From Verrucomicrobiaceae bacterium (GTDB lineage Bacteria > Verrucomicrobiota > Verrucomicrobiia > Chthoniobacterales > Terrimicrobiaceae), in contig QYQL01000166.1 in assembly GCA_007280915.1 (NCBI GenBank), positions 1 through 49,205 on the forward strand: a DNA stretch of 49,205 nucleotides, read 5' to 3'. A program made the position numbers and the translations under genes. Shown here piece after piece: positions 46,089-49,205 of this stretch. Below the pieces are notes generated by a model, which worked only from the letters and a program-made list of their open reading frames with translations, searched no databases and had not been told where the DNA came from. Positions within the stretch are counted from its first letter, which is position 1, and the number at the start of each line of letters is the position of its first letter.

Positions 46089-47454
46089 GGGCTTTGGCGG
46101 GTTGCTTTTCGGCTTCCGGCCCGGACCTTCGGTCATGTGCCGCTGCCTCGTAGATCGCTCTCCAGTGGGCAAGGCGTTCCTTGACGCGTTTCTCCATGCC
46201 GTTTTCCGTGGGTTCGTAGAAGACGCGTCCTTCCGGGAGGTAAGCCTGCGGGACATAGGACCCTTCAAAGTCATGGCTGTATTGGTATCCCTTGCCGTGC
46301 CCGAGGCGTTCGGATCCTTTGTAGTGTCCGTCACGGAGATGGGTGGGGACGGCGAGGGTCCGGCCTTCACGGACTTCCTGCGAGGCCTTACCGATGGCGA
46401 CCGTGCAGCGGTTGCTCTTCGGCGCGGTGGCCAGATAGACGGTGGCGTGGGCTAGAAGGAGATTCGCTTCGGGAAGGCCGATGAATTCGACCGCCTGCTG
46501 GGCCGCCATGGCCACGACGAGCGCGTTGGAATCCGCCATCCCGACATCCTCGCTTGCACAGATGACGATCCGCCGGGCGATGAACCGGATGCCCTCCCCC
46601 GCGTGCAGCATCTTGGCGAGCCAGTAAAGGGCGGCATCCGGATCGCTGCCCCGCATGCTTTTGATGAACGCGCTGATCGTGTCGTAGTGGGCGTCCCCGG
46701 TGCCATCATAGACGACCGCCTTCTGCTGGATGCTTTCCTCTGCGGCATGCAGGGTGATGCGGACCTGGCCGTTGCTCTCCGGCGGGGTGGTGAGCGCCGC
46801 AATCTCGAGGGCATTCAGGCAACGCCGTGCATCGCCGTCGCTCAGGCGCGCAAGATGCGCGGCGGCATCGGACTCCAGCAGGATGCCGCGCCCGCCAAGC
46901 CCACGCTCCGGATCCGCAAGGGCGCGGTGCATGAGGTCAACAAGGTCTGCCTCCGGAAGCGGTTCCAACTGGAAAACCTGCGAGCGGGAGAGGAGGGCGC
47001 TGTTCACGCTGAAGAAAGGGTTCTGTGTCGTCGCTCCGATGAGCCGGATCAGGCCGTTTTCGACTTCCGGCAGGAGGACGTCCTGCTGGGCCTTGTTGAA
47101 CCGGTGGATCTCATCCACAAAAAGAATCGTCTTCATCTGGGCCCGGCGGAGAGCGGCAGCTCCGATGACCCGGCGGATGTCGGCGACGTTGCTTTCCACC
47201 CCGCTCAGCCGCTCGAATTTTGCCTTCGTCGCGCCGGCGATCACCTGCGCCAGCGTCGTCTTGCCGGTTCCCGGCGGTCCGAAGAGGATGAGCGAGGAAA
47301 TCCGGTCGGCCTCGATCGCTCGGCGCAGGAGTTTTCCCGGGCCGAGAATATGCTGCTGCCCGGCATATTCCTGCAGCGTGCGCGGCCGCATGCGCGCGGC
47401 CAGCGGCGCATCGGGTGCCACCTCGCAGGAGGGTTCCTGAAACAAATCATCCAC
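46084..47454 (-). CDS. rarA: Replication-associated recombination protein A (RarA/MgsA)
   Basis: 456 residues. AAA+ clamp-loader-like ATPase acting at stalled replication forks. Walker A FGPPGTGKT, Walker B ILFVDEIHRFNKAQQD, sensor GATTQNP, and the C-terminal tetramerisation domain with the family's GYQYSHDFEGSYVPQAYLP are present. The frame is open to 47640, but that would cover the uspA start. I use the GTG at 47454, which gives the usual N-terminus (VDDLFQEP) and has a GATAAT hexamer with a 6-nt gap. Confidence 0.93.
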   Translation of the reverse strand: MDDLFQEPSCEVAPDAPLAARMRPRTLQEYAGQQHILGPGKLLRRAIEADRISSLILFGPPGTGKTTLAQVIAGATKAKFERLSGVESNVADIRRVIGAAALRRAQMKTILFVDEIHRFNKAQQDVLLPEVENGLIRLIGATTQNPFFSVNSALLSRSQVFQLEPLPEADLVDLMHRALADPERGLGGRGILLESDAAAHLARLSDGDARRCLNALEIAALTTPPESNGQVRITLHAAEESIQQKAVVYDGTGDAHYDTISAFIKSMRGSDPDAALYWLAKMLHAGEGIRFIARRIVICASEDVGMADSNALVVAMAAQQAVEFIGLPEANLLLAHATVYLATAPKSNRCTVAIGKASQEVREGRTLAVPTHLRDGHYKGSERLGHGKGYQYSHDFEGSYVPQAYLPEGRVFYEPTENGMEKRVKERLAHWRAIYEAAAHDRRSGPEAEKQPAKAR

Positions 47455-47460
47455 CGTGCC

Positions 47461-47488
47461 ATTATCGCGGGTTTTTCTCGCAAGCCAA
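47461..47488 (-). promoter_or_regulatory. Putative leaderless promoter of rarA
   Basis: On the minus strand TTGGCT (47488-47483), a 16-bp spacer, GATAAT (47466-47461), then 6 nt to the GTG at 47454. The upstream region also serves uspA, and the two -35 regions overlap around 47478-47488. Confidence 0.45.
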
Positions 47489-47500
47489 GACGCGATCCCG

Positions 47501-47506
47501 TAGGGT
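47501..47506 (+). promoter_or_regulatory. Putative -10 box of uspA
   Basis: TAGGGT ends 6 nt before the uspA ATG at 47513; TCGCAA 17 bp upstream is a poor -35. The same bases (AGGGTGG) could act as a Shine-Dalgarno sequence, so leaderless transcription is less certain here. Confidence 0.25.
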
Positions 47507-47512
47507 GGTTTC

Positions 47513-47962
47513 ATGCAAACCCTGCTTGTTCCCCTCGATGCCAGCGCCAGCACGCCCAAAGTTTTGAACCACGCCGAGGGGCTTGCCCGGGCACTTCCGG
47601 CGAGGGTCGTTCTCCTCCATGTCGTCGAGCCGGTGGCCACCTATGTCCCCGTCGGAGCGGCAATGGACGTGATCGCCACCGCCCCGCCTCCGATCGAGGA
47701 GGGAGAAACAGAGGGGGCGAAGCAGCGGATCGAGCAACTGGCGGCACCTCTGCGGTCCAAGGGGATCGATGTCGCCTGCGAAGCTGTGCTCGGACTCGCT
47801 GTGGACGAAATCATCGAGCAGGCAAAAACCCTTGCGGCGGACTACATTGTTCTCGGCTCTCACGGTCATGGTGCCCTCTACCACCTCTTCAGTGGCAGCG
47901 TGGTCACCGGCGTCCTCAAGCACAGCCCCTGTCCTGTCATTGTTGTTCCCGTCGGGAACTGA
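47513..47962 (+). CDS. Universal stress protein (UspA family)
   Basis: 149 residues, single Usp domain. Strand 1 LLVPLDASASTPKVLNHA starts the nucleotide-binding Rossmann-like fold. GSHGHGALYHLFSGSVVTGVL is the G-2x-G-9x-G-(S/T) ATP-binding loop, followed by the final strand PVIVVPV. Such proteins dimerise and bind ATP under stress; the direct role is unknown. It is divergent from rarA with 58 bp between the starts. Confidence 0.92.
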   Translation: MQTLLVPLDASASTPKVLNHAEGLARALPARVVLLHVVEPVATYVPVGAAMDVIATAPPPIEEGETEGAKQRIEQLAAPLRSKGIDVACEAVLGLAVDEIIEQAKTLAADYIVLGSHGHGALYHLFSGSVVTGVLKHSPCPVIVVPVGN

Positions 47963-48003
47963 CCGAATCGCTTTTCAGGGGCGTCCATATCCCGACAGGC
48001 TGT

Positions 48004-48033
48004 TTGACAAACCTTGTTCCGCTGCGCTATTCT
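48004..48033 (+). promoter_or_regulatory. Strong leaderless-type promoter of the 49-residue membrane peptide
   Basis: TTGACA (48004-48009, perfect -35), an 18-bp spacer, TATTCT (48028-48033, 4 of 6), then 6 nt (GGGGAC) to the ATG at 48040. Transcription should start at or within a base of the start codon. The same GGGGAC-ATG junction follows the hexamer at 110-115. Confidence 0.55.
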
Positions 48034-48039
48034 GGGGAC

Positions 48040-48189
48040 ATGCTTGACACCACCGATCCCGAGGACCGCCAGATCCGTGTGATTCTGATCTCCGCCGCCG
48101 CTGTTGCCATTCTTGGGCTGATCGCCATCGCCACCGTTGTGGCGGTGATGGTTTCGGCCAATTTCAATTTTCTCAGCTGGATGGAGTAG
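48040..48189 (+). CDS. Small single-pass membrane protein
   Basis: 49 residues. Charged N-terminus (MLDTTDPEDRQIR), one long hydrophobic helix (about residues 14-40, VILISAAAVAILGLIAIATV and on) and a short tail (NFNFLSWME). Orientation and partner are unknown. It is supported by a strong promoter ending just before its ATG, not by homology. The end overlaps the convergent YihY gene by 17 bp. Confidence 0.65.
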   Translation: MLDTTDPEDRQIRVILISAAAVAILGLIAIATVVAVMVSANFNFLSWME

Positions 48190-49205
48190 CGTTCGGGTCG
48201 CCGTGGATCTTTGCGCCCGCCGAGCACAGGCAGGCGCCAAGGAAGATCACAACTCCCGAGATATACACCCAGAGCATCAGAAGCATCATCACTCCCACCG
48301 TTCCGTAGATCGCATTGTAGTTCACGAAGCGCGGGAGGTAGTTCACGAACGCATTCTGGCAGGTTTGTAGCGCGAGGGTGACGACGAGGGCGGGGATCCA
48401 GACCTGGCGGAAATAGACCCGCCGCCTCGGGGCCAGCATGTAGAGGAGGGTGAACGAGTAGAATAAGACTCCTCCCGCCAGCGCATACCGGCCCCAGTCG
48501 AAGAGCTGCGCGATCAAATCCAAATTCACTCCGGGCAGCTGGGACTCCACAAAATCCTCGAATGCGATGAGAATTTTCCTCGCCGCCTGCAGGAGCGCCG
48601 GTGCGATCAAGCCGATCAGCAGTGCGCTGGCGAGCACGAGGATCATCAGAAGATTTTTCAGCGGCAGCTGCCACCACGGGATTTCGACCGTGTGCCACGC
48701 CCGGTTCACCCCCCGGACGAGAGCCTGGAAAAACCGCAGCGAGCACCACATCAGGATCGCAAAGGAAACCGCCGTCACGCTTCCTCGCGATTTCTCCAGT
48801 GACCCGACGAGCTGCCAGACGAATGCCTGTTCTGGCCCGCCGAGAGGGAAATACCTCTGGACCGTATGGATGACCTCCTGCGGCTCGAAAAACGACGATC
48901 CGACGGTCAGGATAATCGCGAACAGCGGGACGAGGGAAAACAGGAGGCCGGGCACCCAGTATCGCGCATTGCTCACGAAGTAGTTCTTCTCCAGTCCCGT
49001 CGCCAGGCGGGTCTTCAGATCATCACGAGCCTCTTGGAGGAGTTGGTAATTCACCTGATCAAACAGCAGGCGGCCGCTGCCATCGCGGAAGAGCATTCGC
49101 AGCAGGGTTCGTTCTTCCGGCAACAAATCGCCTTCACCAGAGTCTTTGAGCATCAGCATGTACTTTCGCTTCTCGTATTCCGTGATGGAAAGCTTTCCCT
49201 TGACC
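48173..49205 (-). CDS. YihY/BrkB-family membrane protein (5' end outside the window)
   Basis: At least 343 residues visible; the frame remains open to the last base, so the start lies outside. The YihY/BrkB (formerly 'RNase BN') fold has about six transmembrane helices, with family marks such as YWVPGLLFSLVPLFAIIL, the W-rich AWHTVEIPWWQLPLKNLL and the C-terminal NYNAIYGTVGVMMLLMLW. The first visible part (KLSITEYEKRKYMLMLKDSG) is soluble and charged, a cytoplasmic extension. The function of the family is unsettled; RNase activity was withdrawn. Confidence 0.85.
   Translation of the reverse strand, partial: VKGKLSITEYEKRKYMLMLKDSGEGDLLPEERTLLRMLFRDGSGRLLFDQVNYQLLQEARDDLKTRLATGLEKNYFVSNARYWVPGLLFSLVPLFAIILTVGSSFFEPQEVIHTVQRYFPLGGPEQAFVWQLVGSLEKSRGSVTAVSFAILMWCSLRFFQALVRGVNRAWHTVEIPWWQLPLKNLLMILVLASALLIGLIAPALLQAARKILIAFEDFVESQLPGVNLDLIAQLFDWGRYALAGGVLFYSFTLLYMLAPRRRVYFRQVWIPALVVTLALQTCQNAFVNYLPRFVNYNAIYGTVGVMMLLMLWVYISGVVIFLGACLCSAGAKIHGDPNATPSS

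Follow-up and report, generated by a model that had tools for sequence, protein, structure and literature searches.

The window, i.e., the whole stretch of 49,205 nucleotides of DNA that was analysed, contains a genuine gene for a predicted single-pass membrane protein of 49 amino acids (positions 48040 to 48189 of the forward strand, with the ATG at 48040 and the TAG at 48187-48189), which is referred to here as smp, a name given in this analysis. Conservation of the frame extends over seven family-level groups (with f25 and f93 represented by one genome each), and the frame is under purifying selection, which bears out the claim of an earlier note on this DNA that the short frame was a real gene. 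The product may be a constitutively expressed accessory subunit of the inner membrane, made from a leaderless mRNA, whose tail docks on a larger complex encoded elsewhere. We regard this reading as about evenly balanced between right and wrong, and it is the one that best fits the near-invariant tail, the weak conservation of the helix, the single copy, the gene's own promoter and the changing neighbours.

On this reading, smp would be transcribed constitutively from its own sigma-70-type promoter, giving a leaderless mRNA that starts at the A of the ATG or next to it. The N-terminus of the translated protein, with its arginine and lysine, would remain cytoplasmic, and the tail, NFNxLxWxE, would follow the single helix at the periplasmic face, folded as a turn and a short helix. 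The simplest reading of this near-invariant tail is that of a docking epitope, by which the protein, as a minor accessory component, may join or stabilise a larger housekeeping complex of the membrane whose genes lie elsewhere.

Membrane proteins of this size readily escape notice, and smp is hidden in an open frame of 577 codons that is able to mislead annotation. The kind of thing that smp represents is already known, and none of the libraries searched contains an accepted model for its family. Given its conservation across families and its near-invariant tail, smp is tractable, in that the tail shows the sites for mutation and the distribution shows the genomes to compare.

Conservation, selection and distribution

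The open frame of smp runs across the upstream gene usp and antisense to a gene for a MgsA/RarA-type ATPase, and its 577 codons are one of two points from which it could be argued that smp is not a gene at all, being a chance ORF in a long open shadow frame. The other point is the promoter match, which is modest when taken alone. The conservation of the frame, its purifying selection, its fixed end and the promoter geometry, all seen across families with different gene contexts, speak against this argument, which is refuted computationally by conservation and selection and keeps a negligible probability. A shadow ORF of 528 codons (positions 46603-48189, forward strand) shares the frame and the stop of smp, covers usp and opposes the MgsA/RarA-type ATPase gene, and it could hide smp from annotation.

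The pN/pS ratios are about 0.3, with a range of 0.26-0.45 and a median of 0.32 in the genus of the analysed genome (6 pairs), and a median of 0.35 in genus g2 (55 pairs of 11 loci). The differences at codon positions 1, 2 and 3 numbered 68, 48 and 123, respectively, in the own genus, and 791, 514 and 1376 in g2, i.e., there is an excess at the third position, and the other two frames gave ratios of 0.65-2.0 in the own genus, which exceeded 1 in 10 of 12 cases. Given that the tail is also retained in families f12, f4 and f105, where the convergent gene yihY was not seen adjoining smp, its conservation is not explained by the overlap with yihY.

A tBLASTn search (E <= 1) returned matches in 36 of 58 genomes, including the analysed genome itself and all three other members of its genus. 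The 25 matching contigs that were assessed by record title, following a contig scan for the tail motif, were all from Verrucomicrobiota (under the names Verrucomicrobia, Chthoniobacterales, Terrimicrobiaceae, Chthoniobacter and Spartobacteria). A profile search (E <= 0.001) of 213 genomes from the order, which comprises Chthoniobacterales-type Verrucomicrobiota, located smp in 58 of them, and a repeat of this search recovered the same 58 at E < 1e-8, together with 11 others at 0.009-0.05, which were taken as noise. The carriers belong to families f1 (22/26), f12 (10/11), f4 (5/7) and f13 (21/22), with denominators taken from the list of 213 genomes and with counts that are not independent, as the genomes are related. 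The profile search found smp in none of the 147 genomes of the remaining families of the order, and the phylum as a whole thus does not require it. The DNA pattern encoding N-x-N-hydrophobic-hydrophobic-x-W-x-E followed by a stop occurred in 51 of the 213 genomes, once in each and always at smp (the control gave 0), and seven smp carriers deviate from this pattern.

Beyond the order, the class has three further families with smp, f25, f93 and f105, the last of these with smp in 9 of 12 genomes and with a profile that aligned over 37 columns with that of set A1 (probability 97.7%, E 2e-12). Among 177 genomes of the class, 26 matched at E <= 0.01, including 22 at E < 1e-9, and a sample of 387 genomes of the phylum gave 12 matches at E <= 0.01, seven of which were accepted, i.e., six in the order and G371. 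An E-value of about 1e-4 served as the limit beyond which weaker profile matches were regarded as noise, apart from those of G664, G687 and G717, which are short ORFs that reach the end of the profile, or nearly so, and which were confirmed with their own profile, built partly from them.

The predicted helix and the C-terminal tail

The clean single-pass helix described in the earlier note was found here as well. The most hydrophobic 19 residues of the protein (residues 20-38) have a hydropathy of 2.83, and a value of 2.2 was reached by none of the 76 ATG-started ORFs of 40-60 amino acids in the window, among which smp is not counted because its frame stays open far upstream. The AlphaFold2 model, based on a 48-row alignment, has a mean pLDDT of 89.8 and consists of a long helix of residues 7-39 (48058 to 48156, forward strand), which was predicted from the model together with hydropathy, a turn, and a short helix of residues 44-48. 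With its 49 amino acids, one hydrophobic helix and conserved frame, smp has what defines a small single-pass membrane protein, for which the upper size is about 60 amino acids.

The predicted short helix belongs to the C-terminal motif NFNFLSWME (48160 to 48186, forward strand), which has the form NFNxLxWxE at the extreme C-terminus in the family, where the helix is conserved weakly and the tail is near-invariant. Set A1 comprises 23 of the 30 loci found by tBLASTn, following the exclusion of the near-duplicates L010, L011, L014 and L019, of L024 and L026, which have no ATG near the match, and of L027, a split gene, and its members have invariant N43 and W47, with I12, N41, F42 and E49 conserved in at least 90%. 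The 48 rows of set A2 have an invariant W47, with N41, N43 and E49 at 90% or above, and the conservation of the motif in this set is slightly inflated because 7 of the 48 rows were located via the motif, a form of selection from which A1 is free. The members of A2 have 47-68 amino acids, and a few relatives of smp are as long as 62-73, with the end residue of the tail being constant regardless of N-terminal length; the starts of the f4 members were chosen by the analyst. Deviations from the motif include NFNP (G049 and G572), NFS (G016), DFN and QFN (G006 and G012), a last residue of D (G023) or S (G596), SGHN (G489), NCN (G575) and the absence of the W (G687).

The placement of lysine and arginine is related to membrane topology by the positive-inside rule. 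These residues are found ahead of the most hydrophobic stretch in 48 of the 48 members and behind it in only one, and the topology predicted by this rule is that of a single-pass protein with the N-terminus inside and the C-terminus outside.

In the assembly of G015 (L027/L169), smp is split over two frames, the second of which carries the conserved tail, and the split reflects either a sequencing error or a young pseudogene. This locus was left out of sets A1-A4, yet it was counted as a carrier in the profile and promoter counts.

No accepted match for smp, either by curated cut-off or by significant E-value, was obtained in Pfam, NCBIfam, PHROGs or the PDB, and the Foldseek search of the model against the PDB also gave no match. 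A likeness to ATP-synthase subunit c was set aside as weak (E 0.48). The same was done with a weak local match to LMF1 (PF06762) that was seen in 10 of the 23 members (best E 0.0015), which spans residues 22-48 of the 49-residue protein and 27 of the 163 model positions, and which scored 13.4 bits vs. a cut-off of 27 in the sole member with a score given; it is most likely a local look-alike.

The small size of the protein and its one copy per genome would also be expected of a stand-in for a known small subunit, such as SecG or CydX, a reading that is very improbable in view of the distribution of these systems. SecG is present in 56 of the 58 relatives, and the two genomes without it (G025 and G037) are also without smp, so that SecG is retained in all 30 carriers among the 58, which speaks against its replacement by smp. 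A CydX-type role is likewise not supported, given that CydA does not track smp, being found in 10 of 30 carriers vs. 14 of 28 non-carriers, while of the 13 carriers in genus g2 one has CydA. CydX itself, a small accessory subunit of cytochrome bd, reportedly has 37 amino acids. What smp has in common with CydX-like accessory subunits is a single helix, a length of less than 60 amino acids, a single copy and the ease with which gene callers miss it, whereas no library match joins the two, and smp lacks co-occurrence with CydA and has the C-terminal NFNxLxWxE. Within the preferred reading of an accessory subunit, we tentatively propose, at a clearly less than even probability, that smp encodes an undescribed subunit, found in only part of the Verrucomicrobiota, that docks via the periplasmic NFNxLxWxE at its C-terminus on a core membrane complex with a role in respiration, ATP generation or protein insertion. 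A literature search, conducted mostly on titles and the starts of abstracts, returned no paper recognisable as describing the smp family, although absence from print is not claimed, and a search of PMC3160421 gave no mention of Verrucomicrobia.

Promoter placement and the leaderless layout

The two hexamers that the earlier note had placed directly before the ATG are indeed arranged as a promoter, with a -35 element TTGACA (48004 to 48009, forward strand), a spacer of 18 nt and a -10 element TATTCT (48028 to 48033, forward strand) that ends 6 nt ahead of the ATG, giving 10 of 12 matches in the hexamers. A scan of a 2.7-kb stretch found 2 promoter-like sites vs. 0.6 +/- 0.7 in shuffles, and the promoter match is therefore modest evidence by itself; the same scan found no terminator-like site between smp and the next gene. 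In a leaderless gene, the -10 element is expected to end some 6-7 nt ahead of the start codon, and with the 6 nt seen here a sigma-70 start would fall at the A of the ATG or beside it. The GGGG at 48034-48037, downstream of the -10 element and ahead of the ATG, would be excluded from such a transcript. The protein is thus probably made from a leaderless promoter at its start codon, as the note had proposed. In favour of this proposal are the gap of 6 nt, the peak that such gaps form across the genome and the available part of a published transcription start site (TSS) map of Akkermansia (PMC4782308).

When any in-frame ATG that leaves 44-75 amino acids is accepted, 31 of the 58 carriers (17/22 in f1 and 14/21 in f13) have an exact TTGACA at -38 to -35 relative to such an ATG, and 39 have it if one mismatch is permitted. 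The 179 other permuted hexamers were found at the same place in a mean of 0.07 carriers, the best of which, ATTGAC, with 6 carriers, is the TTGACA site shifted by one. The element is kept at a fixed distance in two families, f1 and f13, despite their differing upstream genes. No exact TTGACA was found at this place in f12 (0/10), f4 (0/5) or genus g4 of f1 (G006 and G012), nor, outside the order, in 8 f105 loci or in f25, and the leaderless promoter is therefore not common to the whole smp family; the f93 gene, also outside the order, has TTGACA at -37.

The analysed genome (G000) contains 50 matches to the pattern TTGACN-N16-19-TANNNT-N0-29-ATG, vs. 30 for the reversed pattern, with a few sites counted twice, as two ATGs follow them. 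The gap to the ATG is 5-9 nt in 25 of these 50 matches, vs. 8.3 expected from a flat distribution (binomial P 6e-8), and the promoter-to-ATG gaps peak at 6-8 nt genome-wide. In 333 kb of own sequence, 4 of 14 exact TTGACA sites have an ATG with 40 open codons within 15 nt, and the gap is exactly 6 in all four, smp included. Given this peak, leaderless sigma-70-type promoters seem to be common in this organism, and smp provides further sequence evidence of this, which bears on the annotation of start codons in this genome. Such a layout would fit the TSS figures for Akkermansia muciniphila, where 10% of the TSSs are leaderless or at gene starts vs. 0.4% in Escherichia coli, according to the available part of PMC4782308, as well as the scarcity of Shine-Dalgarno (SD) sequences in some Verrucomicrobia, according to the available part of PMC10783764. 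What smp shares with the leaderless genes recorded by Cappable-seq in A. muciniphila, as described in that part of PMC4782308, is a promoter placed so that transcription would begin at the ATG; the starts are measured in Akkermansia, whereas that of smp is deduced from the sequence.

At a separate site of the same genome (G000:C108:1012-1060), there is a near-palindrome, TTGACAATATAAC...GTTATATAGTCAA, formed by two overlapping promoter-like matches that face each other, with an ATG near each, which is possibly a divergent, operator-controlled pair.

Neighbouring genes and possible partners

The setting given in the earlier note, between a stress protein and a transporter-like gene, stands in its first half, given that a UspA-family gene lies upstream (47513 to 47962, forward strand; PF00582, 5.8e-27). 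The supposed transporter-like gene in fact encodes a YihY/BrkB-family inner-membrane protein (48173 to 49159, reverse strand; PF03631, 3.3e-37), which is convergent and overlaps smp by 17 nt at its 3' (stop) end. The conservation of the peptide downstream of uspA, also raised in that note, holds for the frame but not for its tie to usp, as the upstream position is taken by a LolC/E-like permease in 15 of the 22 carriers of f1, the own family, and by a der-like gene in 9 of the 12 loci read in f13. Other neighbours include efp-like genes in f1 and pdxH-like and tuf-like genes in f13. The names of the neighbours in relatives are from translations read by eye, except for YihY, rplT and LolC/E, for which tblastn was run against proteins so named by eye, with YihY also being identified by its Pfam model.

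YihY/BrkB (PF03631, TIGR00765) is a frequent convergent neighbour of smp, although its protein, of 328 amino acids here, is quite different in sequence. A convergent yihY lies within 600 nt of smp in 32 of the 58 carriers (18/22 in f1 and 14/15 in genus g27 of f13), while the other neighbours vary between f1 and f13, and this pairing raises the question of whether smp works specifically with the YihY/BrkB protein encoded next to it, as its partner or regulator, either as a subunit or through convergent transcription with overlapping 3' ends. We consider this improbable, given that the two genes are not adjacent in f12 (0/10 carriers), f4 (0/5) or genus g23 of f13 (0/6), that 134 of the 183 genomes with a PF03631 match among the 213 have no smp (49 have it), and that smp is kept in nine carriers without a YihY match. 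These nine comprise G008, G016 and G019 as well as the six f13/g23 carriers (G049 and G570-G574), the last six being read as non-matching from their absence among the listed matches, i.e., within ten unlisted non-matching genomes. Both smp and its promoter are kept in G008 and G016, which are 97 and 98% complete, and in G019, which is 82% complete and has a contig that ends 733 nt further on. The small gene thus outlives yihY where the YihY match is absent, and smp is not an obligate YihY partner.

The main rival to the accessory subunit is a small regulator free in the membrane, comparable to YohP or DinQ, which would target the bilayer, or a protease or sensor kinase, rather than serve as a stoichiometric subunit. 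The size of smp, its one-helix layout, its own promoter and the UspA-family neighbour are consistent with this, but none of the relatives examined has usp next to smp, the motif fixed at the C-terminus suggests that a specific surface is used for docking, and the consensus-like promoter and the place of smp before rplT in f12 would point to constitutive expression, so that we hold such a regulator to be rather unlikely. In f12, smp is followed by rplT in the same orientation, at a distance of 379-384 nt in 9 of the 10 genomes and of 3.4 kb in the tenth, with rpmI being read between the two in L046 and L148, and pheS and pheT after rplT in several loci. Together with the overlap at the start of smp described below, this arrangement suggests that smp in f12 is in an operon with ribosomal protein genes, and the downstream rplT would provide a growth-linked context. 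In f4, exbB-like genes lie downstream in 4 of the 5 loci and ubiE-like genes in two, and in the fifth locus (G488) a pheT-like gene follows at 2.2 kb. Finally, in f12 loci such as L046, L055, L107 and L147, the start of smp overlaps the end of an upstream ORF of about 121 amino acids, which is RibD_C-like by reading.
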